64,000 nucleotides of DNA from Caldimonas mangrovi (lineage in GTDB: Bacteria > Pseudomonadota > Gammaproteobacteria > Burkholderiales > Burkholderiaceae_C). The stretch is from assembly GCF_023721835.1 (NCBI RefSeq), contig NZ_JAMKFE010000003.1, forward strand, positions 248,001 to 312,000, in the 5' to 3' direction. The notes below the pieces were generated by a model. It was given only the letters and a program-made list of their open reading frames with translations, made no database searches and had not been told where the DNA came from. A program made the translations under genes and the position numbers. Positions within the stretch are counted from its first letter, which is position 1. Each line of letters opens with the position of its first letter. Positions 31,080-49,448 of this stretch are shown piece by piece.

Positions 31080-32711
31080 CTACAGCTGCGCCATCGGCTG
31101 GAACGAATGAGCCTGCGCCAAGGGCCAGTACCGCGCGAAGACCTGTTGTGGCAATTCCGCGACGAGCAGCGCGCCCGGCGCCACGAAGGGCAGCAGCCCT
31201 GCCAGCAGTTTGACCTCGTGGCGCGCGGTGCGGTGCACGATGTGCGCGGCGGTGATTTCGTTGGGATGGCCGAGCCCGGCCGCCTGCACCAGCTCCTTCA
31301 GCGCGATCAGCGTGTTCTGGTGGTAGCGGTGGACGCGTTCGGCCTTGTCCGGCACCACCAGCGCGCGCTGGCGCCGGGGGTCCTGCGTCGCCACGCCGCT
31401 CGGGCAGTGCCCGGTATGGCAGGCCTGCGCCTGGATGCAGCCGAGCGCGAACATGAAGCCGCGTGCCGAGTTGCACCAGTCCGCACCGAGCGCCATCATG
31501 CGGGCGATGTCGAAGGCGCTGATGACCTTGCCGGCGCAGCCGATGCGTATCTGCTGGCGCAGGTTCAGCCCGACCAGCGTGTTGTGAACCAGCAGCAACC
31601 CTTCCTGCAGCGGCGCGCCGACGTGGTCGGTGAACTCCAGCGGTGCGGCACCGGTGCCGCCTTCGGCGCCGTCCACCACGATGAAGTCGGGCGTGATGCG
31701 CGTTTCGACCATGGCCTTGGCGATGGCGAACCATTCCCACGGATGGCCGATGCACAGCTTGAAGCCGGTCGGCTTGCCGCCCGACAGCCGGCGCAGCCGC
31801 TCGACGAACTGCAGCAGCTCGATCGGGGTCGAAAACGCACTGTGAGCGGCCGGCGAGATGCAGTCCATGCCTTCCGGAACGCCGCGTGCGGCGGCGATCT
31901 CGGCGGTCACCTTCGCGCCTGGCAGCACGCCGCCGTGGCCCGGCTTGGCGCCCTGGCTCAGTTTGATCTCGATCAGCCTGACCTGCGGTTCGCGTGCAGC
32001 CTCGGCGAACTTGTCGGGATTGAAGCTGCCGTCCTCGTTGCGACAACCGAAATAACCGGAACCGATCTCCCAGATCAGGTCGCCGCCGTTCTCGCGGTGC
32101 CAGCGGCTGATCGAGCCTTCGCCGGTGTCGTGCGCGAAGTTGCCGCGCCGTGCACCTGCGTTCAGTGCCAGCACCGCGTGGGCGCTGACCGAGCCGAAGC
32201 TCATCGCCGAGATGTTGAACACGCTGGCCGAGTAAGGCTGCGCGCACTGCGGCCCGATGGTGATGCGGAAGTCGTGTGTCGGCAGTTGCGTCGGCACTGC
32301 CGAGTGGTTGATCCACTCGTAGCCATCGGCCCCCACATCGCGCTGCGTCCCGAAGGGCCGCTTGTCGGGCTCGCCCTTGGCGCGCTGATAGACCAGCGAT
32401 CGCTGCTGGCGCGAGAACGGGGCGGCCTCGTTGTCGCTCTCGATGAAATACTGGCGGATCTCCGGCCGCACGAACTCGAGCAGGAAGCGCAGGTGTCCGA
32501 TGACCGGGTAGTTGCGCAGCACGGAATGGCGGCCTTGCCGCACGTCGTGCAGGCCGGTGACGAGCAGCGCCGCGAACAGCAGCACCCACCAGCCGCCGGT
32601 GTCGAAGCCGACCCAGACGAAGGCGGCCAGCAGGAAGCCGATGGCGCTCGCGAGCCAGGCGAGGTAGCGGATCGGGAAATGCCGGTCGAGGGCGATCAGC
32701 CAGTACGGCAT
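31080..32711 (-). CDS. Membrane-anchored FMN-binding glutamate-synthase-family protein
   Basis: 543 residues from the ATG at 32711. The N-terminus has two hydrophobic segments (YLAWLASAIGFLLAAFVWV, WWVLLFAALLVTGL). The rest is the FMN/iron-sulfur synthase domain of glutamate synthase (IKLSQGAKPGHGGVLPGAKV, VVDGAEGGTGAAPLEF, IGCAGKVISAFDIARMMALG). The cysteine cluster ACHTGHCPSGVATQ matches the 3Fe-4S site. There is no glutaminase domain, so it cannot be a complete GltB. Stand-alone members occur widely and their reaction is unsettled. Confidence 0.85.
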   Translation of the reverse strand: MPYWLIALDRHFPIRYLAWLASAIGFLLAAFVWVGFDTGGWWVLLFAALLVTGLHDVRQGRHSVLRNYPVIGHLRFLLEFVRPEIRQYFIESDNEAAPFSRQQRSLVYQRAKGEPDKRPFGTQRDVGADGYEWINHSAVPTQLPTHDFRITIGPQCAQPYSASVFNISAMSFGSVSAHAVLALNAGARRGNFAHDTGEGSISRWHRENGGDLIWEIGSGYFGCRNEDGSFNPDKFAEAAREPQVRLIEIKLSQGAKPGHGGVLPGAKVTAEIAAARGVPEGMDCISPAAHSAFSTPIELLQFVERLRRLSGGKPTGFKLCIGHPWEWFAIAKAMVETRITPDFIVVDGAEGGTGAAPLEFTDHVGAPLQEGLLLVHNTLVGLNLRQQIRIGCAGKVISAFDIARMMALGADWCNSARGFMFALGCIQAQACHTGHCPSGVATQDPRRQRALVVPDKAERVHRYHQNTLIALKELVQAAGLGHPNEITAAHIVHRTARHEVKLLAGLLPFVAPGALLVAELPQQVFARYWPLAQAHSFQPMAQL

Positions 32712-32835
32712 GGGGTGCTCCGAAGTCGCGACGCGGCATCGTATGCCGTGCAGCAAAAAGCTGGACGGTCAACGGGGCGAAGCGTTTCCGGCCCGGCGTG
32801 CTGAGACAATCCGGGATTGCCCGCTGGACACGCCG

Positions 32836-33585
<750 letters not shown>

Positions 33586-33644: not shown

Positions 33645-33650
33645 TATAGT
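33645..33650 (+). promoter_or_regulatory. Candidate -10 element for the nine-gene biosynthetic operon
   Basis: TATAGT lies about 33 nt upstream of the preferred GTG start of the first biosynthetic gene. No good -35 hexamer stands at the expected spacing, so an activator or alternative spacing may be involved. This is a visual match only. Confidence 0.4.
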
Positions 33651-33682
33651 CCTGGGCTTTGTATCCTGCTGTTGCGTTTCTC

Positions 33683-34663
33683 GTGAACCTTGAGCCTGCT
33701 TTCGCACCCGACTCCCGCAAGAAGCGAGTGCTTGTCGTTCGATACTCGCAAACCGGCCAGCTCGATGCTGTGGTCGAGAGCCTCCTTGCGCCGCTGCAGG
33801 CCGACCCGAAGGTCGAAGTGCATGTCGAAACCCTGAGGCCCGAACCGAGCTATCCGTTTCCCTGGTCCTTCTTCAGCTTCCTGGACGCTTTTCCCGAATC
33901 GGCCCACATGGCGCCGCCGGCGCTGGCGCCGCTGTCGCTGCATGGGGACGAGCATTTCGATCTCGTCATCCTGCCCTACCAGGTCTGGTTTCTCGCGCCT
34001 TCGCTTCCCGTCACGGCGTTTCTCAAGCACCCGATCACGCGTCGGCTCCTGAAAGGCAAGCCAGTCGTGACCGTGGTCGCCTGCCGCAACATGTGGCTGC
34101 TGGCGCAGGAAAAGATGAAGTCGCTGCTCGGCGCTGTGGACGCGCGGTTGATCGACAACGTCGTGCTGACGGACCCGGGCCCGACGCTGGCAACCTTCAT
34201 CACCACGCCGCGCTGGCTGCTGAGTGGAAAGAAGAGCGGCTTCTGGGGACTGCCGCCGGCCGGTCTGAGCGACACACAGGTGCGTGGCGCCAGGCGTTTC
34301 GGACTCGCACTGCGCGATGCGCTGCACGAAGGGCGCGAGCAAGGGTCGCAGCCGCTGCTGCACGGCCTTGTGGCGGTGCGGGTCGAGCCTCGGCTGTACT
34401 TCAGCGAGAAGACCGGAACCCGGAGCTTCTTCCTCTGGGGCAAGTTGCTGCGGGCGGTCGGTGCACCGGGAAGCGCGCGACGGCGCCCTCTGCTGCTGCT
34501 CTACGTTGCCTTCCTGGTCACGATGATCGTGACCCTCGTTCCGGCGAGCCTGGCCTTGCAGGCCTTGCTGCGCCCTGCCTTGCAGGGGCGGCTGAATAGA
34601 ATCCGCACCCAGTTCGAGCTGCCTTCCGGATCCGCCGACCATCGCATGGCCCAGTATGAATGA
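33683..34663 (+). CDS. DarA/StlC-like flavodoxin-fold protein (dialkylresorcinol pathway)
   Basis: 326 residues from the GTG at 33683; a TTG at 33659 would add eight residues, and neither has a clear ribosome site. The N-terminus KRVLVVRYSQTGQLDAVVES is the flavodoxin phosphate-binding loop. The middle (VILPYQVWFLAPSLPVTAFL, VVTVVACRNMW) matches proteins annotated as dialkylresorcinol-condensing DarA, an aromatase-like partner of DarB. A hydrophobic C-terminal stretch (about 285-315, LLLLYVAFLVTMIVTLVPAS) may anchor it to the membrane. The stop overlaps the next ATG by 8 nt. It heads a nine-gene overlapping operon. Confidence 0.7.
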   Translation: MNLEPAFAPDSRKKRVLVVRYSQTGQLDAVVESLLAPLQADPKVEVHVETLRPEPSYPFPWSFFSFLDAFPESAHMAPPALAPLSLHGDEHFDLVILPYQVWFLAPSLPVTAFLKHPITRRLLKGKPVVTVVACRNMWLLAQEKMKSLLGAVDARLIDNVVLTDPGPTLATFITTPRWLLSGKKSGFWGLPPAGLSDTQVRGARRFGLALRDALHEGREQGSQPLLHGLVAVRVEPRLYFSEKTGTRSFFLWGKLLRAVGAPGSARRRPLLLLYVAFLVTMIVTLVPASLALQALLRPALQGRLNRIRTQFELPSGSADHRMAQYE

Positions 34664-35786
34664 CGTGTTCCTGACCCGCACGGGTGCCTTCCTGCCCTTT
34701 GCACCGGTTGACAATGAAGAAGTCGAGGGGGTGCTCGGCCAGGTCGGAAGCAGACCGTCGCGGGCGCGCCGCGTGGTCCTGCGCAGCAATGGCATCCAGT
34801 CGCGTCACTATGCAATCGACCGGGCGACGGGGGAGCCGGCAATGAGCAACGCCCAGCTCACGGCGAGCGCGATCCGCGCGCTGGGTGACATTGGTGCGGT
34901 CGACGTGCTGGCGACCGGCACCTCGCTGCCCGACCAGCTCATGCCCAATCACGCGGTCATGGTCCATGGCGAGCTGGGATGGCCACGGTTGGAACTGGTG
35001 TCGTGCGCAGGGATTTGTCTGGCCGGCACGGCGGCGCTGAAGCATGCCTGGCTCTCGGTGCGCGCAGGTGATGCGGTGCGGGCCGTAGCCACAGGGTCCG
35101 AACTGGCTTCTCCCATACTGCTTGCCCGCAATTTCGAAGCCGAAGTCGAGCACAAGGTGCAGGCATTGCATGACCGGCCCGAGATTGCGTTCGAGAAGGA
35201 TTTCCTGCGCTGGATGCTGTCTGATGGTGCGGGGGCCGTGCTGCTGGAGCGTGAGCCGCAGGGGCCGTTGTCGTTGCGCGTCGAATGGATCGAGCTGTCG
35301 TCGGCTGCGCACGAACTGCCAGCCTGCATGTACGCCGGTGCCGACAAGAACGAGGATGAATCGCTGCGGGGCTGGCTCAGCTTCCCCTCCGAGCAATGGC
35401 GGTCGAGTTCGGTGTTTGCCGTCAAGCAGGACGTGCGCCTGCTCAACGACCACATCGCACGTGCCACGCTGCGCGACCCGTTGCAGCACATCGTTCGCAA
35501 ACGGAGCCTCGAGGCGAGCCGGATCGACTGGTTCCTGCCCCACTTGTCGTCGTTCTACTTCATGCCGGCCATGGAGCGTACGCTGGCGGAGATCGGGCTG
35601 CCGATTCCGCGCGAGCGCTGGTTCACCAACCTGGCGAGCAAGGGCAACACCGGCTCTGCATCACCGTACATCATGCTCGACGAGTTGTTCCGTTCGGGCC
35701 GCATCCAGTCGGGGCATCGGTTGCTGATGTTCGTTCCCGAGAGCGGCCGCTTCTCCAGCGGGTTCGTCTTCATGGAGGCAGTCTGA
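34656..35786 (+). CDS. DarB/StlD-like beta-ketoacyl-ACP synthase III
   Basis: 376 residues, thiolase fold. The catalytic triad of KAS III is complete: Cys117 in LELVSCAGICLAGTA, His296 in WFLPHLSSFYF and Asn331 in ASKGNTGSASPY. StlD/DarB enzymes join two acyl chains head-to-head and cyclise them to a cyclohexanedione or resorcinol ring, rather than priming fatty acid synthesis. The adjacent DarA-like and ACP genes support that branch. It overlaps the upstream gene by 8 nt and the downstream gene by one base (TGATG). Confidence 0.8.
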   Translation: MNDVFLTRTGAFLPFAPVDNEEVEGVLGQVGSRPSRARRVVLRSNGIQSRHYAIDRATGEPAMSNAQLTASAIRALGDIGAVDVLATGTSLPDQLMPNHAVMVHGELGWPRLELVSCAGICLAGTAALKHAWLSVRAGDAVRAVATGSELASPILLARNFEAEVEHKVQALHDRPEIAFEKDFLRWMLSDGAGAVLLEREPQGPLSLRVEWIELSSAAHELPACMYAGADKNEDESLRGWLSFPSEQWRSSSVFAVKQDVRLLNDHIARATLRDPLQHIVRKRSLEASRIDWFLPHLSSFYFMPAMERTLAEIGLPIPRERWFTNLASKGNTGSASPYIMLDELFRSGRIQSGHRLLMFVPESGRFSSGFVFMEAV

Positions 35787-36181
35787 TGGACGTCGATGCC
35801 GTACCGCAGGATGGCAACGTGACGCTGGGTGGGCACCGAAAGGCGGTCTATGCACGAGATGCACGAGGCCGCATGGTGATCACCACCTCACGCGGGTGGG
35901 AAGCCGAAGAGATCGTCACGAGCCATGCCGTCGAAGTCATGAAGCAGCAGGCGCATGCCGCTCTCGAACGCGCCAGAGCCGGCGCGGCGTCGCCGTTGGA
36001 GTACTGGATGTACGCGCGACGCATGGATGTTGCTCTGCTCGCGCAGACCACCGGGTTCTGGCAGTGGCGCGTGCGCCGCCACATGCGCCCGGACCGATTC
36101 GCGCAGCTGCATGAGAAGCATCTGCAGCGCTATGCCCAGGCGCTCGGCCTGTCGGTGCAGGACCTGAGGAGCGTTCCGTGA
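35786..36181 (+). CDS. Small conserved-looking protein of unknown function in biosynthetic operon
   Basis: 131 residues, no family recognised. The N-terminal half is mixed charged (GHRKAVYARDARGRMVITTS). The middle is Ala-rich helical, and the C-terminus (EYWMYARRMDVALLAQTTGF, then WQWRVRRHMRPDRFAQL and LQRYAQALGLSVQDLRSV) looks like a small helix-turn-helix fold. It could be a regulator or a scaffold for the neighbouring ketosynthases. It is translationally coupled on both sides (TGATG and GTGA overlaps), so it very likely functions with the pathway. Confidence 0.55.
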   Translation: MDVDAVPQDGNVTLGGHRKAVYARDARGRMVITTSRGWEAEEIVTSHAVEVMKQQAHAALERARAGAASPLEYWMYARRMDVALLAQTTGFWQWRVRRHMRPDRFAQLHEKHLQRYAQALGLSVQDLRSVP

Positions 36182-37158
36182 GCTTTGCACACCAGCACGC
36201 GGCGCACTGCGAAAGCGGGGTGATTTCCAGCCTGTTGCGTCACCACGGCGTGCCGATGACGGAAAGCCTCGCCTTCGGACTGTCGTCCGCGCTGTCGTTC
36301 GCCTATCTGCCGTTCGTCAAGGTTTCGGGGCTGCCGTTGATCGCCTACCGCATGCCGCCGAAGTCCATCATCAAGGGGTTGCTGCGGCCGCTGGGCGCCG
36401 ATTTTCGCTTCGAGGCCTTCCGCTCCGAGGCAGCCGGCCAGTTGAGGCTCGACGCATTGCTGGCGCAGGGGCACGTCGTGGGGTTGCAGACGTCGGTGTA
36501 CTGGCTGCCGTATTTCCCTCAGGACATGCGTTTCCACTTCAACGCGCACAACCTGCTGGTGTACGGGAAGTCGGACGGCGACTATCTGATCAGCGACCCC
36601 GTCTTCGAGGAACCGGTGCGATGTGCCAGCGCGGACCTGCAGCGGGCCCGCTTCGCCAAGGGGGTGCTGGCGCCCAAGGGCTTGCTGTACTACCCGCGGA
36701 CCCTCGGCGCGAAGTCGGTGGAGCCCGTCGCGGTCCGCTCGGCGATCCGCAAGACTTGCCGGATCATGCTCGCACCGGTGCCCATCGCCGGCGTGCGCGG
36801 CATGCGGATGTTGGCGAAAAAGCTGCGTCGCCTGCCGGCCGACCAGCCTGGCAGCGCCGACTTCATCGGGCACATCGTGCGCATGCAGGAGGAGATAGGC
36901 ACGGGCGGGGCCGGTTTCCGCTTCATCTACGCCGCTTTTCTCCAGGAGGCGGCCGCACTGGCAGAGTTGCCCCGGCTTGCCGAGTTCTCGGAACGCTTGA
37001 CGACGATCGGCGACGGCTGGCGCGCATTTGCGCTGACTGCGGCCCGGATGGTCAAGGGGCGCGAGCCGCTCGACCCTGGCAAGGTGGCCGACAAGCTGCT
37101 CGAGCTGTCGGCTCGGGAAGAGGCCTTCTTCCGCGCCCTCAAGGCCGAGCTCGGCTGA
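36178..37158 (+). CDS. BtrH N-terminal-domain protein (putative ACP-dependent acyltransferase)
   Basis: 326 residues from a GTG at 36178 overlapping the previous stop (GTGA). Residues 1-150 form a papain-like BtrH_N domain with Cys11 in HCESGVISSLLRHHG, His124 in FNAHNLLVYG and Asp140 in YLISDP, a plausible Cys-His-Asp triad. BtrH in butirosin synthesis moves an acyl group from an ACP to an acceptor amine. The helical C-terminal half (about 185-326) may bind the acceptor or ACP. In this operon it may acylate or release the polyketide-like product. Confidence 0.72.
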   Translation: MSFAHQHAAHCESGVISSLLRHHGVPMTESLAFGLSSALSFAYLPFVKVSGLPLIAYRMPPKSIIKGLLRPLGADFRFEAFRSEAAGQLRLDALLAQGHVVGLQTSVYWLPYFPQDMRFHFNAHNLLVYGKSDGDYLISDPVFEEPVRCASADLQRARFAKGVLAPKGLLYYPRTLGAKSVEPVAVRSAIRKTCRIMLAPVPIAGVRGMRMLAKKLRRLPADQPGSADFIGHIVRMQEEIGTGGAGFRFIYAAFLQEAAALAELPRLAEFSERLTTIGDGWRAFALTAARMVKGREPLDPGKVADKLLELSAREEAFFRALKAELG

Positions 37159-38081
37159 TGCTGGCGCTCGATCGGCTCGCGTTCCGCTATGCCGCGGCGG
37201 CCCGACCTGCGCTGGACGGCATTTCGCTGCGGGCGCAGCGAGGTGAGGTTCTTGGCCTGCTCGGGCCCAACGGGGCCGGCAAGACGACACTGATCTCCCT
37301 GTTGGCGGGCCTGTTGACGGTTCAGCACGGCGAGATCCTGGTCGACGGCGAGCCGCTGGCGCTCGTTCGCAAGCGCCATCCCACGCGCATCGCCATCGCA
37401 CCCCAGGAATACGCCTTCTATCCCATGCTGACGGTTCGCGAGAACCTATGCTGCTTTGCCGGCTCAGCCAGGCTGACAGGGGCGCGGCTCGGGGACCGTG
37501 TACGTGCCGGCCTTGCGTTTGCCCAGCTGGAGCGGTTCGCCGACGTTCGGGCGGAGCGGCTGTCAGGGGGGCTGAAGCGCCGGCTGAACCTCGCGATTGC
37601 ATTGCTGGCGGAGCCGGAACTCGTACTGTTCGACGAACCCACCGTAGGAGTCGATCCGCAATCGCGCGCCTTCGTGCTGGAGTCGATCCGATCGCTGGCG
37701 TCGCAGGGCGTGGCAGTGATCTACGCCTCGCACTATATGGAGGAAATCGAGGCAATCGCCGAACGCGTCGCGATTCTCGACCATGGCAGGGTGCTGCGCG
37801 ACGGCACGCTGGACGAGTTGCTGTCCGAGGGGGCCGCACACCTAGCCATCACGCTCGAAAGCGGTGGCGTCGAACAAGCCCGAGCGCTGCTGTCGCGTTT
37901 CGGCGAGCTGCTGGACGGCGACGCTCCATTGCGCCTGCGGCTCGCCGAGGCCCAGCGCGTGGCCCCCGTTTTCGCGGCACTGGAAGCTGCCGGTCTGCGC
38001 GTGCGCCACGCCCAGTTCGGTCGCTGCGACCTCGAGCAGCTTTTCATGTCGCTGACTCACCGTTCCCTGCGGGAGGCATGA
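37158..38081 (+). CDS. ABC transporter ATP-binding protein
   Basis: 307 residues. Walker A LLGPNGAGKTTL, Q-loop IAPQEYAFYP, signature RLSGGLKRRLNLA and Walker B LVLFDEPTVGVDPQ are all intact, followed by the H-loop YASHYMEEIE. It is of the DrrA/ABC-2 exporter class. The ATG overlaps the BtrH-like stop by one base and its own stop overlaps the permease start. It is probably one half of a lipid or natural-product exporter dedicated to this cluster. Confidence 0.9.
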   Translation: MLALDRLAFRYAAAARPALDGISLRAQRGEVLGLLGPNGAGKTTLISLLAGLLTVQHGEILVDGEPLALVRKRHPTRIAIAPQEYAFYPMLTVRENLCCFAGSARLTGARLGDRVRAGLAFAQLERFADVRAERLSGGLKRRLNLAIALLAEPELVLFDEPTVGVDPQSRAFVLESIRSLASQGVAVIYASHYMEEIEAIAERVAILDHGRVLRDGTLDELLSEGAAHLAITLESGGVEQARALLSRFGELLDGDAPLRLRLAEAQRVAPVFAALEAAGLRVRHAQFGRCDLEQLFMSLTHRSLREA

Positions 38082-39235
38082 TGCTCGGTGCGCTCGTCAA
38101 GAAGGAATTGCTGGCGCTGTCGCGCGACCTGCATGGGCTGGCGGCACTGTTTCTGATGCCGGTGATCTTCATCGTCATCATGTCGCTGGCGCTCAAGGAC
38201 GTGTACAACCCGCCGCTGCGCGAACTGGCCTACGCTGTCAAGGTGCACGACGAAGGAGAGCTGGCGCAGGCGCTGCTGGCCGTCTGGCAGGAACGGCATG
38301 GTGAGCCCCGCGCTTTGCCGGTCGACTGGGTTGGGCCGCTGCGATCCGGGCAACTGAAGTACGTGCTCGTGGTCGAACCCGGGCTGTCGGAGGAGCTGGG
38401 TCGTGCGGCGCTGCCGCGCCGGTCGGTGCTCCATCTGGTCACGGAACCCGGCATGGACAGCAATCTGTTCAATGCCTTGCGTGCGGAATTGACAGCAATC
38501 GCCGGAGAGATCAAGTTCCGCGCGGTGGTCTCCGCTGTCGACGCAGATGCACCCGATACCGCTTCGATGCAGGCCCTGGTGGACGCGCAGCGCCATGCGA
38601 GCACGGGGCCACGTCCGACGGCGGTACAGCAGAACGTGCCGGCATGGCTGGTCTTCGGCATGTTTTTTGTCGTCACTTCGGTCGCGGGGTTGTTCATCCA
38701 GGAACGCAGCAGCGGCACGCTCGCACGGCTGCACAGCCTGGGGGTCGGCCGCATCATGCTGCTCGCATCGAAAGCGGTGCCCTATCTCGGGATCAACGCC
38801 GTGCAGGCGGCTTTGATGCTCGCGGTGGGCGTATGGCTGATGCCGGTTCTCGGGGGCGATGCGCTGTCGCTGGCTGGCGTCGACTGGGCGGCGTTGACGC
38901 TTGCCGTGGCAGCAGTCAGTGCCGCTGCGGTGGGGCTGGCGCTGGCCTTGTCGTGCCTGGTCCGCACGCACGCGCAGGCGTCGGCCGTCGGCCCCATCCT
39001 CAACGTGCTGATGGGCGCGGTGGGCGGCATCATGGTTCCAAAGTTCGTCATGCCGGGCTTCATGCAGCAGCTGGCGGGGTTATCGCCGATGAACTGGGGA
39101 CTGGAGGCGCTGCTGACCGTGCTGCTTCGAGGCGGTGACGTCTCGGCCACCTTGCCGCATGCGGCTCGTCTGGGCGCCTTTGCCGGCGCCATGCTGGTGC
39201 TGGCCCTGTTCCTGTTCCGACGGACTCTACGATGA
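38078..39235 (+). CDS. ABC-2 type transporter permease
   Basis: 385 residues from the first of two tandem ATGs at 38078 (ATGA overlap). An N-terminal helix (LAALFLMPVIFIVIMSLALK) is followed by an extracytoplasmic domain (about 45-190), then about five helices from residue 190 on. The ABC-2 signature segment lies around FVMPGFMQQLAGLSPMNWGL. This YhhJ/NatB-like layout is typical of exporters of lipids and pigments. It is the partner of the preceding ATPase. Confidence 0.88.
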   Translation: MMLGALVKKELLALSRDLHGLAALFLMPVIFIVIMSLALKDVYNPPLRELAYAVKVHDEGELAQALLAVWQERHGEPRALPVDWVGPLRSGQLKYVLVVEPGLSEELGRAALPRRSVLHLVTEPGMDSNLFNALRAELTAIAGEIKFRAVVSAVDADAPDTASMQALVDAQRHASTGPRPTAVQQNVPAWLVFGMFFVVTSVAGLFIQERSSGTLARLHSLGVGRIMLLASKAVPYLGINAVQAALMLAVGVWLMPVLGGDALSLAGVDWAALTLAVAAVSAAAVGLALALSCLVRTHAQASAVGPILNVLMGAVGGIMVPKFVMPGFMQQLAGLSPMNWGLEALLTVLLRGGDVSATLPHAARLGAFAGAMLVLALFLFRRTLR

Positions 39236-39507
39236 CGCCGACATCACGCGACGACTTGATCGCCGTTCTGAAGAAGCTGGTGCTGGAGGCAGCCGAGAAA
39301 GAGGCTCCGCGTGGCGGGCTCGGCGACCACGAAACGCTGTTCGGCCCGGAGTCCCGGTTGGCGCTCGACTCTCTGGACGCCTTGCAGGTTTCGATGGCCT
39401 TGCAGGAGCGCTTCGGCGTCCGCATGGCCGACAGCAAGGAGACCCGGCGCGCGCTGAACTCCATTGCGACGCTCGCCGACTATTTGCGCGAACGCGGCGC
39501 GGCATGA
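39232..39507 (+). CDS. Acyl carrier protein (DarC-like)
   Basis: 91 residues. The phosphopantetheine attachment Ser47 is in LALDSLDALQVSMALQERFG, the standard DSLD motif of ACPs. A slightly long loop precedes it (PRGGLGDHETLFGPES). The start overlaps the permease stop and the end overlaps the ketosynthase start, both by ATGA. It is most likely the dedicated acyl carrier for the DarB-like and ketosynthase proteins of the cluster. Confidence 0.85.
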   Translation: MTPTSRDDLIAVLKKLVLEAAEKEAPRGGLGDHETLFGPESRLALDSLDALQVSMALQERFGVRMADSKETRRALNSIATLADYLRERGAA

Positions 39508-40577
39508 AGCCAGTCTATGTGCGTGGCCGAGCACTTTCGTGCTCGCTCGGGCTCGATCTGCGCGCCTGTGCCCGCGCGGTGCGCAGCGTGCCACCGTCAC
39601 CCGCACGCGTCGAGGTGGCACCCGGCATGTCATGGCCGTTTCATGCCATCCCCGACGAAGGCGGCGACTGGCTCGAACGCGCGCGTCGCATCGTCTTGCG
39701 GACCGTCGCAGATTGCAGTGCCGCTGTCGATCCTTCGGGGGCGTTGTTCCTCGCATCGTCTTCCATCGACATCGGCGCACGCGAGCAAAGCGGTGACTAT
39801 TCCCCCAACTTCCACGCTTTCGCCGAACAGGTGGCCGACTGGATCGATTGGCGGGGGCCGGTGTTTACCGTGTCGACGGCCTGTACGTCGGGCATCAATG
39901 CGCTGCTTGGCGCCGCCCGCTTCGTACAGGCGGGCCAGACGCCGACGGCGCTCGTGCTGGGCGTGGAACTGCGCAACCGGTTGACGCTGGCGGGTTTCGG
40001 TGCGATGCAGTTGCTGGCGCCTCGGCAGGCGCTGCCGTTCGGCTTGCAACGCGAGGGCTTGATGCTCGGCGAGTCCGTGGCGGCCGTCTCGCTCGGCACC
40101 GAGCCTTCGCGCTGGCGTGTGGCGGGCGGTGCCAACGTCGTCGACGGCAGTGATACCGCTGCGGCCGTACCGGCGGCGATTGCCGCCATGTGCCGGCAGG
40201 CTCTGGAGACCGCTGGCCTCCAGCCGTCCCAGATCGGCCTCATCAAGCTGCAGGCCGCCGGCAGCCCGGGCAACGACGCCATCGAGGCTGCAGCCTTGCT
40301 GCGGTTTTTCGAGACGATGCCGCCGCTGGTGTCGTTGAAAGCGCATCTCGGGCACACCCTTGGCGCTGCGGGCGTCGCCGAGACGGCCTTGCTGATGGCG
40401 TGCATCGAGGGCCGCGACTGGCCGCTGATCGGCTACCCGCTCGACCCCTCGCTCGGCGTCGGACTGGCCGAGCACGCCCCAGAGGCGGCGCGTCACATCC
40501 TCGCGTACATCCTGGGATTCGGTGGCGGACACGCGGCGGTGGTGCTCGAGGACTGCACTGCCCAGGAGGCCGTGTGA
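39504..40577 (+). CDS. Beta-ketoacyl synthase with missing HGTGT histidine
   Basis: 357 residues, KAS I/II type. Nucleophile Cys127 is in FTVSTACTSGINAL and the second His284 in LGHTLGAAGVAE with Lys279 before it. The position of the first His (the HGTxT motif) reads LQAAGSPGND, placing Gln250 where His is expected. That His normally activates malonyl-ACP decarboxylation, so this enzyme may not elongate. It could load, transfer or hold chains like KS0 domains. It is shorter than a typical FabF (about 410). It is coupled to the ACP and to the following gene. Confidence 0.8.
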   Translation: MKPVYVRGRALSCSLGLDLRACARAVRSVPPSPARVEVAPGMSWPFHAIPDEGGDWLERARRIVLRTVADCSAAVDPSGALFLASSSIDIGAREQSGDYSPNFHAFAEQVADWIDWRGPVFTVSTACTSGINALLGAARFVQAGQTPTALVLGVELRNRLTLAGFGAMQLLAPRQALPFGLQREGLMLGESVAAVSLGTEPSRWRVAGGANVVDGSDTAAAVPAAIAAMCRQALETAGLQPSQIGLIKLQAAGSPGNDAIEAAALLRFFETMPPLVSLKAHLGHTLGAAGVAETALLMACIEGRDWPLIGYPLDPSLGVGLAEHAPEAARHILAYILGFGGGHAAVVLEDCTAQEAV

Positions 40578-41062
40578 ACCGCTGTCGCACCGCGGCGCAC
40601 TTTGTCGCAGCTCCGCCGCCGGCGGGGTGGCAAGAATGGCTCACGCAGCGCCTGGGCCGGCGCCCTCGGCGCATCGGAGCCTGGAGCGAACTGGCGCTGT
40701 ATGGCGCGGTGCAGTGTCTCGACCTCGCGGGCGAAAGCACCTTGCCGGCCGGCGTCGCGCTGCGGGTGGCAAGTTTGCGGGGCCCGATGCGGGCCGCACG
40801 CGCCTGCATAGAGCAAAGCACTTCCGGTCTGCCGATGCCGTTTACCTTTCTTCAGAGCCAGCCCAGCCAGTTGCTCGCGGCGTTGAGCCACTATCTCGAC
40901 TGGCAGGGCGACGCCCGGCTGGTCGTGGCGCGGGAGCCGGCAGCCGTGCTCGCGCTGGCGCAACTCGAGGCCGGGCCATCCGGCGTGCTGCTCGGCTGGG
41001 TCGAAGAGGAACACCAGGGACACGGGATGCAGACGCAATGGTGGCGGCTGGTGCCGGAGTGA
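40574..41062 (+). CDS. Short ketosynthase-like (chain-length-factor-like) protein
   Basis: 162 residues from a GTG overlapping the previous stop (GTGA); open frame upstream is ignored. The sequence aligns by eye with the N-terminal half of beta-ketoacyl synthases: MPFTFLQSQPSQLLAALSHY, then ARLVVAREPAAVLALAQLEA where the nucleophilic Cys should sit, then GVLLGWVEEE. It lacks the Cys and the whole C-terminal half. It may pair with the preceding ketosynthase as a non-catalytic partner. It is the last gene of the operon, 34 nt before the riboswitch-controlled metX unit. Confidence 0.5.
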   Translation: MNRCRTAAHFVAAPPPAGWQEWLTQRLGRRPRRIGAWSELALYGAVQCLDLAGESTLPAGVALRVASLRGPMRAARACIEQSTSGLPMPFTFLQSQPSQLLAALSHYLDWQGDARLVVAREPAAVLALAQLEAGPSGVLLGWVEEEHQGHGMQTQWWRLVPE

Positions 41063-43936: not shown

Positions 43937-45655
43937 GTGTTTCCCTCTCCGCTGGGCCTCTGTGTCGTTGCCCTCCGCTCCCTGGCGGCCTGGCTGCTGC
44001 TCGCGCTGCTGGCCGGTGTCGCTGCGGCCCAACAGCCTGCGCCTGTCCCGATTTCGCCGCCCGCGCGCACCGACCTGCTGGAAGTCGGCCGGCTGTTCGT
44101 GGCCGGCCCCGGGGAGGTGTTCTCGCCGCAGGCCGAGGTGCGGGCCGAGCGGCTGCAGACCCTGCGGCGTGCCGAAGGCGTCGACCTGTTCGGCGGTGCG
44201 TACTGGTTGCACGCACGCGTGCGGCAGGACGTGGGGCCGCCGCAATGGGTGTTCGACCCCAACAACACCCTGATCGAGCACGTCGAGGCGCGGCTGTACG
44301 GCAGCGACGGCAGTCGGCAGGTGCTGCGCAGCGGCTACCGCGAGCAGAGGGAGTACGCGCTGCACTATGGCAAGGAAGTCGTGCTGGCGCCGGGGGTCGA
44401 GTACGAAGTACTGGTGCGGTTCGAGAGCCCCTACTTCGCGTCGGTGCCGCGCTTTCAGCTGCTGACCGAGACGGACTACCAGCGCAAGGTGCTGGAAGAG
44501 AACCTCGTCATCCTCGGCTCGCTCGGCGCGATGGTGGCACTCGCTGCCTTCAACTTGTTCGTCTTCGCGTTGACGCGCATCCGCAGCCACCTGTATTACG
44601 CGATGCAGCTGGTGATGGCCTGCATCGCATGGGCGCTGGTGTTCCAGTTGCCGGCCGAGCTGTTCGGCTGGCACGACCTGCGTGTGCACTACGTGCCGTT
44701 TTTCCTGCTGCCTGCGATCAGCGCGCTGTTCTGTATCGACTTCCTGGAGTTGCCGAAGCGGCACCCGAAGCTGCACCGCGCCCTACGTGCGCTGATCGCG
44801 GTGGCGTTGGTGCTGACCCCGCTGGCGGTGTTCGCCGTGCCGTACGCACACGCGACCGCTACGCTGCTGATCAGTGCCTGGCTGGTGCTGATGGTCACCA
44901 GCGGTGTCGTCTCGTGGTGGCATGGCTATCGGCCGGCGCGTTTCTTCGCGCTGGCGTTCGCGGCGATGTTCGTGCCGGCGTTGATCATCCTGCCCGGCAA
45001 CATCGGCCTGATCCCCGACCTGGTCGAGAATGCCGAGATGCTGACCCTGTTCGGCGGCGTGATCGAGGCGCTGCTACAGGCCTTCGCGCTGGCGGACCGC
45101 ATCCGCACGCTCAACCTCGAGAAGGACAGCTACGCGATGCAGCTCGGCCGGGCGCTGGAAGTCGCCCACACCGACGCGATGACCGGCATCGGCAACCGCT
45201 ACGCCTTCGAGCGGGCCTTGAACGATCGCGGCACGCCGACGGAACACGAGCTGGTGCCGCACATGTTGCTGCTGATCGACCTCGACGGGCTGAAGCAGAT
45301 CAACGACCGGCACGGCCACAGCCGAGGCGACGAGCTGCTGAAGGCGGTGGCGCGAGGCCTGAGCGAGCTGACGCAAGGCCGCGCCTCGTGCTTCCGGCTG
45401 GGCGGCGACGAGTTTGCGATCCTGGCACCGCATCACCTCGAGCACGAGCTGGAACGCAGCCTCGCGCTGCTGGAAACCGAACTCGTCGCACGCGGCTTCG
45501 AGGATGCGGGCATCAGCTACGGCATCGCACACTGGACCGCCAATGCGCGCGCGCTCGACCTGATCAACCTGGCCGACCAGAACATGTACCAGCACAAGGC
45601 GCGCCGCAAGCGCGCCCGTGCCGACCTGGTGGCAGGCGACTCGGCGGCGCTATAG
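43937..45655 (+). CDS. 7TMR-DISM diguanylate cyclase
   Basis: 572 residues from a GTG at 43937. Signal peptide to about residue 31, then an extracytoplasmic 7TMR-DISMED2-like domain (40-185; GAYWLHARVRQD, EYEVLVRFESPYFASV). Seven helices follow (about 190-385), a short coiled coil, then a GGDEF domain with DAMTGIGNRYAFE and the intact active site LGGDEFAIL (GGDEF at 489-493). It should make cyclic di-GMP in response to an envelope signal. The end overlaps the convergent FAD oxidoreductase gene by 6 nt. The 243-nt upstream gap has no visible gene. Confidence 0.9.
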   Translation: MFPSPLGLCVVALRSLAAWLLLALLAGVAAAQQPAPVPISPPARTDLLEVGRLFVAGPGEVFSPQAEVRAERLQTLRRAEGVDLFGGAYWLHARVRQDVGPPQWVFDPNNTLIEHVEARLYGSDGSRQVLRSGYREQREYALHYGKEVVLAPGVEYEVLVRFESPYFASVPRFQLLTETDYQRKVLEENLVILGSLGAMVALAAFNLFVFALTRIRSHLYYAMQLVMACIAWALVFQLPAELFGWHDLRVHYVPFFLLPAISALFCIDFLELPKRHPKLHRALRALIAVALVLTPLAVFAVPYAHATATLLISAWLVLMVTSGVVSWWHGYRPARFFALAFAAMFVPALIILPGNIGLIPDLVENAEMLTLFGGVIEALLQAFALADRIRTLNLEKDSYAMQLGRALEVAHTDAMTGIGNRYAFERALNDRGTPTEHELVPHMLLLIDLDGLKQINDRHGHSRGDELLKAVARGLSELTQGRASCFRLGGDEFAILAPHHLEHELERSLALLETELVARGFEDAGISYGIAHWTANARALDLINLADQNMYQHKARRKRARADLVAGDSAAL

Positions 45656-48600
45656 ATCCTTCTCGCCGCGGATGACCAGCGGCCACCCGCTGATCGCGCG
45701 CGAAGCCTGCATGCCGCCCATCACCGCGCCTTCGACGCAGCCCGCGTTCAGTCCGGTGCGCAGCCAGTCGCCGGCGAGGTAGAGGTTCGCGTAGCCCGAG
45801 CCGTCGGCCGGCAACCGCGCGGCGGTGCTGTCGACCACCGACAGCACGTAACGCTCCGAGGGATCGATGTTGGCGCGCCAGTACTGCGCGTCGAAGCGCT
45901 GTTCGCCGGTGCGCGATTGCGCATCGACCAGCACCGGCCACTCGAAGCTGCCGGCGGTGGCGATCGACGGCCACAGCGTATGGATACGCCGCGTCAGCTG
46001 GTCGATCGCGTTGTGCTTGACGGCGGCGCTGCAGCGTTCCGGGAAGGCGTGATCCGACGGCGGCGGGTAGTGCGCCATCGGCAATGCGCTGCAGAAGTAC
46101 GAGACGTTCTTCGGCTGCAGCGCCGGAGGCCAGCTCTCGCGCACCAGCAACTGGTCCATCGGCGCCCAGGTGTCGAACGGTTCGCTGTAGCCGCTGAGCA
46201 CCGGCGGCTGGCCGTCGCTGGCATAGCTGGCCCAGCCGATCTGGCGCAGGTCTTGGTTCAGCCACACCTGGTAGGCCTGCGTCGCGACGGTCTTCAGCGT
46301 GCGCGTCATGGTCTGCAGCGCCGGGCTGCGCTCGACGAGCCGGGAGCACAGTTGGGGCACGCCGTCGACCGAGATGCCGAAGACGACGAGATCGAAATCC
46401 TCACCGCGCTTGAGCGTCAGCTGTGGCAAAGGCCGGCCGAAGTGCTGTTCATAGCGCTGCGGCCAGTCGCTCCAGTTCGATTCGAGGTTGACGCGGCCCC
46501 GCTGCAGCAGCGCGGCCTGCTCGGGCACGATCTGCCCGTAGTTCGGCGTGCTGGGCCAGCAGGCCAGGCCCTCGACGTCGACCAGCGGGTCGTAGTGGTC
46601 GGCGCCGCGGGTCACGTCGACCTGGCGCGTCAGCCGGATCGTGTCGACCGTCATGGAACCGTCGGCCGCCGGCAGCAGCTCCTCGACCTTGTGGAAGAAC
46701 TTGAACGTCACGCCACGCGCCTTCAGCAGTTGGTACAACGGCGTGAACACGGTGTCGCCCATGCCGGCCTGCATCTTCCACATCATGCCGCCGTGGTAGG
46801 CGATGGCAACCTTCATCATGCCGCGCAGCATCGTTCCGGCTTCGATGTTGGGGCGGTCGAAATCGCCGTCCTCGTAGGCGAACACCAGGTCGTAGAAGCC
46901 GCGCACCGGGGCCGAATGGACGGTGTACCGGGGATTCGCTCCGTGCTTCGTCAGCCAGTCGTAGAAGTCGATGTCGTTGATGACGTCGAAGCCGTGGACG
47001 AGCACGCCGTCCTCGATCATGCCGATCAGCGAAGTGACCGCGAGATCGATGCAGATATAGAGCCGGCGCAGCGTGTCGTTGCCGTCCAGTCGATGCAGCA
47101 CCGCGTCCCACAGCCAGGCACGCAGCCCGCGCAGCGTCGCGTTCATCAGGTCGCGGTCGCCGCCGCCATGTTGTCCGAGGTCTTCGGGCAGCGACAGGGC
47201 CAGTGCGTGCAACGCCTCGGCGACGTGCTGGGCGTCAGCGGCCAGGTGCTCGACGTCGGTCTCCACGGCGGCCGCCAGCCGATGCAGCCAGTCGGGGTGC
47301 TCGCCGCTGGACATCGGCGGCGCCGGCAGCGCGGCCTCGTCGAGCGCGCCGCGCAACTGGTCGAACCACATGCGTACCCAGGCGTAGGCCGTGGTCGCCA
47401 TCGCCCACAGCCCGAGGCTTTCGTTGCCATGGCCCGGTTCCCCCGGCTTGATCGGCGTGTCGATGGGCCAGGTCTTCCACTGGCCGTCGATCCATTCGGT
47501 CAGCGCGATGAAATGCTGCGGCTTGAAGGCGTCCTGCCAGGTGGCGAGCGGGGCGCCGGGCGGGCGGTCGAGCGCACCGTACGCCTTTTGCATCATCGCG
47601 AACGCGTTGTCGTAGAAGCCGAACCAGATGTGCAGGCCGTGCTCTTCGATGCGCTGGCCGTCCTCGGCATTGCGCCCGCTGGCGCCCTTGCCGCCCAGCC
47701 GCCAGCCCATCTGGTAGACGGTGATCTCGTAGCGGTTGCGCCAGCCGGGCTGCTCGGTCAGGTGGAAGGCGGCGGTCATTGCGCCGACCCCGCCGCCGAG
47801 GACGGCGACCTTCTGCGGGCGGACCTGCGAGTTGTCGACGAGCTCGGTGCCGGGCGGTACCTCGAAATCCATGTCCAGATGGAAGCCGAGCAGGGCCGGC
47901 TGCGTGCCGAGGGGCAGCCCGAGCGTGCGGTTCAGCGGGAAGCTGTCGTAGGGGTGCAGCGTGGCCTGGTAGGCCGGGCCGAGCAACTGCACCGAACGCA
48001 GCGCCGTCACCGTTGCGGGCGCGCTGACCACGGCCTGGTAGACGGCCTTCTCGCCGGCCGCGTCCGGGAACTGCTTCAGGAAGATCTGGTCGAGCTGCGG
48101 CGCGGTGAAGGTCTCGATGACCTGTTCCCAGCCCGCAGCGTCCAGGTCGAGCGCGTCCGCGTCGCTGGCCAGCACCTGCACCAGCTGCTTCACCAGGGAG
48201 CCGATGTCCGCCAGCGGTGTGTGCGCGGTGTTCCCCTGGCCGTGCACGTCGAGCAGCGGGTGCATCGCCAGTTGCGTCTGCGGTGAATAGGGTTGGAAGC
48301 CCTTGGCGGCCAGCGTGAAGCGCAGTGCCGGCTCGCCCGGCGCGGGCATGGTGTATTCGCAGCTGTACTTCGGGTAGCCGAACAGCTCGCGTCCGTTGAT
48401 GAGTGCCATCGTGTCGTCGACCCAGATGTGCACCGGGTAAACGAACAGCCGGTTCACCCGGGACTGGCCCGGCAAGAGCTGCCCGACCAGCACCCAGGTA
48501 ACGATGTCGGTTTCTTCGCCCCAGCCCTTGGCCTCGTCGACGGGGTTGGTGGAGTTGGCGTGCTGCACCTGGGTGAAGGTGAGCATCACGTAGGGCGACA

Positions 48601-48787
48601 GCACCTTGAAGCGCATGTGGCCGGCGGCCGGTGCGTTCAAGGTGATGTCGACGGTCTGTTGCAGCTGCTGCCGGTCTCCCTTCAGGAAGAAGCCGTACAT
48701 GCGCGAGCTGCCCAAGCGCAGCGGCGGGTGCATCAGCACGTTGCCGCCGGAATAGATGTAGTCGGGCCGCTGTCGTGGCTCGGTCAT
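45650..48787 (-). CDS. Acetoacetate-decarboxylase-like / FAD-dependent oxidoreductase fusion
   Basis: 1045 residues from the ATG at 48787 (GAGG nearby); an ATG at 48802 lacks a ribosome site. Residues about 1-310 resemble the acetoacetate decarboxylase superfamily (ALINGRELFGYPKYSCEY, with Lys140 at the Schiff-base position but Tyr after it instead of the second Lys of true decarboxylases). Residues about 325-1045 are a phytoene-desaturase/amine-oxidase-like flavoprotein with dinucleotide motif KVAVLGGGVGAMTAAFHL and C-terminal FAD motif NLYLAGDWLRTGLNAGCVEG. The two domains probably act on the same lipid or polyketide. The reaction is unknown. Confidence 0.7.
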   Translation of the reverse strand: MTEPRQRPDYIYSGGNVLMHPPLRLGSSRMYGFFLKGDRQQLQQTVDITLNAPAAGHMRFKVLSPYVMLTFTQVQHANSTNPVDEAKGWGEETDIVTWVLVGQLLPGQSRVNRLFVYPVHIWVDDTMALINGRELFGYPKYSCEYTMPAPGEPALRFTLAAKGFQPYSPQTQLAMHPLLDVHGQGNTAHTPLADIGSLVKQLVQVLASDADALDLDAAGWEQVIETFTAPQLDQIFLKQFPDAAGEKAVYQAVVSAPATVTALRSVQLLGPAYQATLHPYDSFPLNRTLGLPLGTQPALLGFHLDMDFEVPPGTELVDNSQVRPQKVAVLGGGVGAMTAAFHLTEQPGWRNRYEITVYQMGWRLGGKGASGRNAEDGQRIEEHGLHIWFGFYDNAFAMMQKAYGALDRPPGAPLATWQDAFKPQHFIALTEWIDGQWKTWPIDTPIKPGEPGHGNESLGLWAMATTAYAWVRMWFDQLRGALDEAALPAPPMSSGEHPDWLHRLAAAVETDVEHLAADAQHVAEALHALALSLPEDLGQHGGGDRDLMNATLRGLRAWLWDAVLHRLDGNDTLRRLYICIDLAVTSLIGMIEDGVLVHGFDVINDIDFYDWLTKHGANPRYTVHSAPVRGFYDLVFAYEDGDFDRPNIEAGTMLRGMMKVAIAYHGGMMWKMQAGMGDTVFTPLYQLLKARGVTFKFFHKVEELLPAADGSMTVDTIRLTRQVDVTRGADHYDPLVDVEGLACWPSTPNYGQIVPEQAALLQRGRVNLESNWSDWPQRYEQHFGRPLPQLTLKRGEDFDLVVFGISVDGVPQLCSRLVERSPALQTMTRTLKTVATQAYQVWLNQDLRQIGWASYASDGQPPVLSGYSEPFDTWAPMDQLLVRESWPPALQPKNVSYFCSALPMAHYPPPSDHAFPERCSAAVKHNAIDQLTRRIHTLWPSIATAGSFEWPVLVDAQSRTGEQRFDAQYWRANIDPSERYVLSVVDSTAARLPADGSGYANLYLAGDWLRTGLNAGCVEGAVMGGMQASRAISGWPLVIRGEKDL

Positions 48788-49448
48788 GGTGGAGACCCTC
48801 ATGCTTGTCGTTGTGTCGCGCGATGCTAAGGGCAGTCGTGACGTGCTGCCATAGGGTCAACAGCAGGCAGGGGCCCTTGCCCCACGGCCCAGCGGGATCG
48901 CCACGCAAGGAGCCTGGGAGGGCTGCATTCGGGTGGGTGCCGCGTCGGCAACGCGATCGGCACCCTGTTCATCGAGCCGGCGAAGCAGGACGCGATGCGC
49001 CGCGCGATCGAACCGCGGGGTCGGTGATCCGCAAGAACTTCCAGAGCGATCTGGAGGCGGTGAACTGCCTCCACGACTCCGTGCGGCAGGCGCATCACTT
49101 CAGCGAGGACAGGGAAGTGACGCGCAAACGAGGTCGTGCACCTGCTCGAGCAGTTGGTGTGCGTGCTGGGTGGGGGCGAGCCGGCCCGTTCACGGCCGGA
49201 GCGACCATCGAGCACACCCGTACGAATTTCAGGGTGATTCAGAACTTCTTGCCGGTGGGTCTCGATATCGGCGCCGTCGAGCCGGTGCATGCGAGTGCAG
49301 GCGTCCAGCGCCGTGAGCAGTCGCAACCTCGGCATGCGAATGTCTCAGGGACGGAACGTCGAGAGGCTCGGGCGTCAGCGTGGCGGAGTCGGAGAGCGGG
49401 GTTCGAGGCCGGCAGGAACGCACGAACGCGCGTTTGCGGCAAAAGAAA

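Follow-up and report, generated by a model that had tools for sequence, protein, structure and literature searches.

A dar operon of the Azoarcus type in Caldimonas mangrovi and its probable polyene–dialkylresorcinol ester product

What does a tightly packed set of nine genes, with a DarA/DarB-like pair at its head, make? The question is raised by a 64,000-nucleotide stretch of the Caldimonas mangrovi genome (RefSeq assembly GCF_023721835.1, contig NZ_JAMKFE010000003.1, positions 248,001 to 312,000), hereafter the window, in whose numbering coordinates are given. The original prediction, made from this DNA, was of a stripped-down operon yielding an uncharacterised resorcinol-like lipid. Our results point instead to a complete dar operon of the type described in Azoarcus sp. 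BH72, with a cell-bound polyene–dialkylresorcinol ester of the flexirubin/arcuflavin type as its likeliest product, and we consider this probable.

The dar locus of Azoarcus sp. BH72 (azo0293–azo0283) is listed in Table 1 of PMC3949708 as darA, B, D, E, F, (G, H), I, C, J, K. Apart from darG and darH, the window reproduces this gene set and order, darA-B-D-E-F-I-C-J-K, consecutively on the + strand from 33659 (or 33683) to 41062 (Table 1). All eight junctions overlap, as originally predicted, by 8 nt at A/B, 1 nt at B/D and E/F, and 4 nt at D/E, F/I, I/C, C/J and J/K; the two 1-nt overlaps result from the use of ATG 35786 (darD) and ATG 37158 (darF), the first start codons in frame. The predicted start at 33645 had to be moved, since that position is not an in-frame start and the darA frame contains a TAG at 33647–33649. 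The earliest usable starts are TTG 33659 and GTG 33683, of which we favour GTG 33683, on the basis of low model confidence in approximately the first 20 residues and of homologue length. We follow the Azoarcus gene names; darD and darE correspond to DarG and DarH in NCBIfam.

The protein of gene 4 served as query in a scan of genome contigs for related loci. The best 80 of 320 relatives were kept and combined with six stretches from genomes of the same order, giving 86 loci, 85 of them distinct (L030 and L074 are one contig). The identical nine-gene order was found in 23 of the 85. Many of the remaining loci are either truncated at the end of a contig or show rearrangement, such as a reversal of J, C, I and F. 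Where both genes were detected by tblastn, they were neighbours in 77/78 loci for A-B, 80/82 for B-D, 82/83 for D-E, 63/75 for E-F, 61/71 for F-I, 44/58 for I-C, 53/63 for C-J and 39/39 for J-K. These counts indicate that the nine-gene arrangement is more than chance. Among the hosts are further Proteobacteria, Campylobacterota, Desulfobulbaceae and one Opitutia bacterium. Eight further genomes sampled from the family to which the window belongs gave no DarH match, and the distribution is therefore patchy.

The predicted domains were largely confirmed: a flavodoxin fold, a ketoacyl synthase III (KAS III) of StlD/DarB type, a BtrH-like protein, an ATP-binding cassette (ABC) ATPase and permease, an acyl carrier protein, a ketosynthase and, in gene 9, half a ketosynthase fold; gene 3 belongs to the DarG family. 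DarB scored 573 bits against the StlD/DarB family model NF005293 (cut-off 450), and matched the solved structure of StlD (5gk0) with 410 bits and an E value of 8e-122, against 61 bits and 1e-15 for the best FabH-type chain. Its residues C121, H296 and N331 are kept in 79/79 rows and align with the Cys, His and Asn of StlD. A housekeeping FabH was ruled out (TIGR00747, 55 bits, cut-off 292; PRK09352, 75 bits, cut-off 249). The host genome (G000; 5.5 Mb, 53 contigs) has a single match of the dar kind for each of DarB and DarH, and the only further DarB-like places are two stretches of contig C52 with about 30% identity, which are probably a single FabH gene.

Pfam gave nothing over cut-off for the products of darA, darD and darK, and NCBIfam nothing for those of darA and darK. 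Solved structures searched with the DarA sequence alone likewise gave nothing convincing. The AlphaFold model of DarA, from an alignment of 34 of 68 listed homologues, has a predicted local distance difference test (pLDDT) score of 94.1 and shows a flavodoxin domain with two long C-terminal helices, which matches flavodoxin structures. Its best fold matches, at low TM-scores, are to receptor structures that we take to be flavodoxin-fusion constructs (one title states so), and the single-domain flavodoxins are the informative matches. Together with the position of darA beside darB in all but one of the loci in which both were detected, this upholds the DarA/DarB-type assignment over an unrelated flavodoxin family. 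DarE residues C11, H124 and D140 are kept in 85/85 rows, and this invariant Cys/His/Asp set would fit a thioester-acyl transfer mechanism. The BtrH-like protein is thus a probable acyltransferase, in keeping with its NCBI family name, BtrH-related acyltransferase DarH.

A second cluster in the same genome, on contig C15 (L014, L015), lies mostly on one strand, and its gene set is that of an aryl-polyene cluster (Table 1). The components looked for in a partner cluster, namely an ApeO-type ketosynthase, chain-length factor, ketoreductase, dehydratase, acyl carrier protein, acyltransferase and exporter, are all present. The dar and polyene clusters are on different contigs. The ammonia-lyase on C15 scored 304 bits against FlxA_rubin_TAL (cut-off 700). 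It has a Gln aligned with the Gln specific to tyrosine and phenylalanine ammonia-lyases (TAL/PAL), and its first selectivity motif is like that of histidine ammonia-lyase (HAL). In this comparison the column of the Gln motif in the lyase alignment was assumed, and 2o6y was taken to be the Rhodobacter TAL. The proven tyrosine lyase FlxA has the same HAL-like first motif (PMC3992019), and the combined pattern makes a tyrosine- or phenylalanine-derived starter likelier than one from histidine. The polyene starter probably comes from the ammonia-lyase and not from 3-hydroxybenzoate. Apparent branched-chain amino-acid ABC transporter genes flank the cluster (L015 3640-7210, L014 5105-6598); the substrate-binding match is below cut-off.

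Co-occurrence of the two systems was examined in 300 genomes of the order, of which 10 gave a DarH match, seven over cut-off. The PRK09185 ketosynthase (E <= 1e-125, slightly stricter than the family cut-off) was found in 89/300 genomes, comprising 7/7 with DarH and 82/293 others (Fisher p 1.7e-4), and PF13723 in 97/300, including all seven with DarH (Fisher p 3e-4); as the seven include the window's own genome and span 5 genera, they are not independent and both p-values are therefore optimistic. Two of the three genomes with sub-cut-off DarH matches (G152, G250) are in both sets. A polyene ketosynthase over cut-off was also found in 21 of 22 genomes that have all nine genes in this order; the 23rd such genome, G143, is one of the 300 and carries the ketosynthase too. 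Physical linkage, with at least three polyene genes adjoining dar genes, was seen in 21 of the 85 distinct loci. In one DarH-bearing genome the PRK09185-type ketosynthase gene carries one in-frame TAA (G232:C1:129939-131138).

In the literature, proteins of the DarB family convert two acyl thioesters from fatty-acid metabolism to a cyclohexanedione, which DarA-family proteins oxidise to a 2,5-dialkylresorcinol, and arcuflavin is an ester. DarB and DarA of this operon would make a 2,5-dialkylresorcinol from such thioesters. DarE, through its invariant Cys/His/Asp, may take a polyene acyl group off an acyl carrier protein and attach it to a resorcinol hydroxyl; the polyene, expected to be a yellow pigment, would be supplied by the C15 cluster. 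DarC and DarJ–DarK may serve in supply or hand-over of an acyl chain, and DarF–DarI in export of the product or a precursor.

The operon is ordinary except for one odd ketosynthase active site, that of DarJ. The best solved relatives of DarJ, 7f28_B and 6qsp_A, both have His at the HGT-motif column where DarJ has Gln250. This column is Gln in 37 and His in 27 of 64 aligned rows. C127 is kept in 64/64 rows and H284 in 63/64, so that fold and nucleophile appear to be under selection. When the 64 rows are placed on a tree, built by a quick method and with long branches flagged, the Gln/His trait needs at least five changes, and every Gln row lies inside one clade of 44 (37 Gln, 7 His). The nearest named relatives of the operon's DarJ are from Rhizobacter (Sphaerotilaceae), which points to a probable betaproteobacterial host within Burkholderiales. 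Natural His-type homologues are found in L080 and L083 (Azoarcus sp. metagenome-assembled genomes) and at 25 further loci.

The AlphaFold model of DarK (pLDDT 91.6; alignment of 35 of 40 DarK homologues) gave as best folds 7f28_A/C and 6qsp_B, the partner chains of DarJ's best solved relatives; 6qsp_B is ApeC. R32-R33 is invariant in 35 rows, and over this stretch the DarK profile aligned with the polyene chain-length factor at a probability of 56% and a single-comparison E value of 1e-4, a match that is weak alone. The darJ–darK pair resembles the ApeO–ApeC ketosynthase/half-size chain-length-factor pair. PMC3949708 names darJ as a ketosynthase and darK as hypothetical; neither the ApeO–ApeC likeness nor the Gln-for-His change is mentioned in its accessible text, and literature listings, on which this is mostly judged, showed no treatment of either. 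An apparent link between Gln in DarJ and the presence of DarK was dropped as a tblastn detection limit. By tblastn, 34 Gln loci had DarK and 3 did not, against 4 and 23 His loci; a profile search recovered DarK in 26/27 His loci and in 2/3 Gln loci seemingly without it, several of these matches being weak (to E 0.004).

Decarboxylating ketosynthases are thought to need the HGT His that is often absent from DarJ. DarJ–DarK may even so extend chains in the normal way, with Gln250 tolerated, and build a special alkyl precursor of the resorcinol ring. The conservation of C127 and H284 and the presence of His in 7 of the 44 rows of the clade holding all Gln rows are consistent with normal extension; the His of the solved relatives, and, depending on which genes were used, the formation of resorcinol by E. 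coli expressing Azoarcus DAR proteins (PMC3949708), speak against it, and we regard it as a serious possibility that falls short of being probable. More tentatively, and on balance doubtfully, DarJ–DarK in the operon's clade could be an ApeO–ApeC-type pair that has lost ordinary decarboxylative extension (His to Gln at 250) and now serves as a docking or acyl hand-over module, relaying a finished polyene or beta-ketoacyl chain from one carrier protein to another on behalf of DarB or DarE. If so, a ketosynthase/chain-length-factor pair would have turned into an acyl-transfer partner whose Gln form is kept across many betaproteobacteria. The analysis sharpens the question of the role of DarJ–DarK, as the pair stays beside darC while DarJ is often without the supposed decarboxylation His.

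For the operon as a whole, several observations weigh against a polyene ester, in addition to the non-independence of the seven DarH genomes. The product of this strain is deduced from its genes, and the putative acyltransferase role of DarE from a database name and conserved residues. DarB missed the cut-off of resorcinol_DarB (NF053539; 458 bits, cut-off 550), and the darD product that of flexirubin_DarG (NF053545; 125 bits, cut-off 170). G281, a genome with a sub-cut-off DarH match, is in neither the PRK09185 nor the PF13723 set, and G318 (1.7 Mb assembly) has the nine-gene order and no polyene ketosynthase over cut-off. Fewer than three polyene genes were present in the fetched stretch of 64 of the 85 loci, and in this genome the two clusters are unlinked.

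The lack of linkage here would also suit two independent products: a dialkylresorcinol, free or fatty-acylated, that the operon synthesises and exports for a function of its own (antibiotic, signal or radical scavenger), and a separate pigment from the polyene cluster. The operon has its own acyl carrier protein, ketosynthase pair and exporter, and dialkylresorcinols are found in free form in other bacteria (PMC3949708). This alternative is at odds with the association of dar and polyene ketosynthase genes across genomes, with the 21 physically linked loci, and with Azoarcus extracts, in which free resorcinol was undetected and the resorcinol was found inside arcuflavin (PMC3949708); we judge it improbable. 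A free uncharacterised resorcinol lipid, as originally predicted, was demoted from leading interpretation on the Azoarcus gene table, the polyene cluster and the co-occurrence. The known locus type, the DarH-family putative acyltransferase and the polyene cluster together make a pigment of known class, a polyene–dialkylresorcinol ester, more likely. It is highly improbable that the operon is stripped down, without acyltransferase or tailoring of its own and fed by primary metabolism only: 33659-41062 is indeed without a reductase, dehydratase or ligase, as the original prediction had it, but the gene set equals the standard Azoarcus locus (PMC3949708), a DarH-family putative acyltransferase lies within it, and the complete-looking cluster on C15 has a ketoreductase, dehydratases, a ligase and an acyltransferase. 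The polyene–dialkylresorcinol ester is thus preferred. Since the locus is already recognised as one for pigment, effort directed at an unknown resorcinol lipid would be misplaced.

The 5′ neighbour of the operon encodes a UPF0149/SEC-C protein (32710-33585). On the 3′ side a 138 bp gap is followed by a putative metX, so named from an alpha/beta hydrolase match and its metW neighbour, and by metW. A promoter and terminator scan gave nothing exceeding shuffles, and a tRNA scan found none. Elsewhere in the window, a glutamate-synthase FMN-domain protein stands alone (PF01645; 31080-32756, - strand), a 7TMR-DISM receptor carries a fused GGDEF diguanylate cyclase domain (43937-45655, + strand), and a single open reading frame (ORF) of 1050 aa has an N-terminal part resembling acetoacetate decarboxylase and a further part of NAD(P)-binding/amine-oxidase-like type (45650-48802, - strand).

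Table 1. Genes of the dar operon (window coordinates) and of the polyene cluster on contig C15
Gene or product	Location	Strand	Description	Basis or remark
darA	33659..34663	+	flavodoxin-fold dialkylresorcinol aromatase, two long C-terminal helices (predicted)	gene order, fold, homologues in dar loci
darB	34656..35786	+	StlD/DarB-family KAS III-like cyclising ketosynthase	NF005293; C121, H296, N331
darD (Azoarcus)	35786..36181	+	NCBIfam DarG family	NF053536 172 bits, cut-off 70
darE (Azoarcus)	36178..37158	+	NCBIfam DarH, BtrH-like putative acyltransferase	NF053550 482 bits, cut-off 300; BtrH_N, DUF4872
darF	37158..38081	+	ABC transporter ATPase	PF00005
darI	38078..39235	+	ABC-2 type permease	PF12698
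darC	39232..39507	+	acyl carrier protein, Ser47 in DSL motif	PF00550; S47 in 53/53 rows
darJ	39504..40577	+	ApeO-like ketosynthase; C127, H284, but Gln250 at first catalytic His position	PF00109/PF02801; 7f28_B, 6qsp_A
darK	40574..41062	+	half-size chain-length-factor-like protein, half ketosynthase fold, invariant R32 R33	AlphaFold, fold matches
phosphopantetheinyl transferase	C15
PRK09116-type ketosynthase	C15
ketoreductase	C15
FabZ-like dehydratase	C15			below its cut-offs
PRK09185-type ketosynthase (ApeO-type)	C15			NF006618 470 bits, cut-off 407
MMPL exporter	C15
YbgC-like thioesterase	C15			below cut-off
aromatic ammonia-lyase	C15
family 2 glycosyltransferase	C15
AMP-ligase part fused to ApeI-like dehydratase	C15
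carrier protein	C15			small ORF alongside resembles second carrier by look
acyltransferase	C15
Ketoacyl-synt_2 chain-length factor	C15			PF13723 216 bits

StlC and StlD, the enzymes of isopropylstilbene synthesis, are from Photorhabdus. DarB is a relative of StlD by its E value of 8e-122 and the aligned Cys, His and Asn, whereas the gene neighbourhood here is of the dar–polyene type. In each of the ApeO–ApeC entries 6QSP and 7F28 (PMC8358021), one partner chain is matched by DarJ and the other by DarK. DarK is half-size, and its invariant Arg-Arg, to be compared with Arg30/Arg31 of ApeC, was set by profile alignment against the Arg motif of the chain-length factor. The pair differs from ApeO–ApeC in the Gln that replaces the HGT His in 37/64 DarJ rows and in a DarK that falls below every Pfam model.

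The flexirubin clusters of Chitinophaga pinensis and Flavobacterium johnsoniae likewise combine darA/darB with an aryl-polyene cluster containing an ammonia-lyase and a ligase, and flexirubin is an ester of a polyene acid and a dialkylresorcinol (PMC3992019). They differ from the present system in that the operon proteins miss NF053545 and NF053539, and the C15 lyase FlxA_rubin_TAL. The closest likeness is to Azoarcus sp. BH72, where the resorcinol and polyene clusters are also apart in the genome and the resorcinol was found joined to the polyene as arcuflavin (PMC3949708). Only Azoarcus has the two extra genes darG and darH (PHD and PilT domains) between darF and darI, and its starter, 3-hydroxybenzoate from a XanB2-type chorismatase, differs from that expected of the ammonia-lyase in the polyene cluster here (no chorismatase search was made). 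In gene content and order, family membership, conserved residues, and the presence and co-occurrence of a polyene cluster, the operon is a further case of a described pathway type, with DarE, DarF–DarI and DarJ–DarK in putative roles, and would add one more case of polyene–dialkylresorcinol pigments outside Bacteroidetes.

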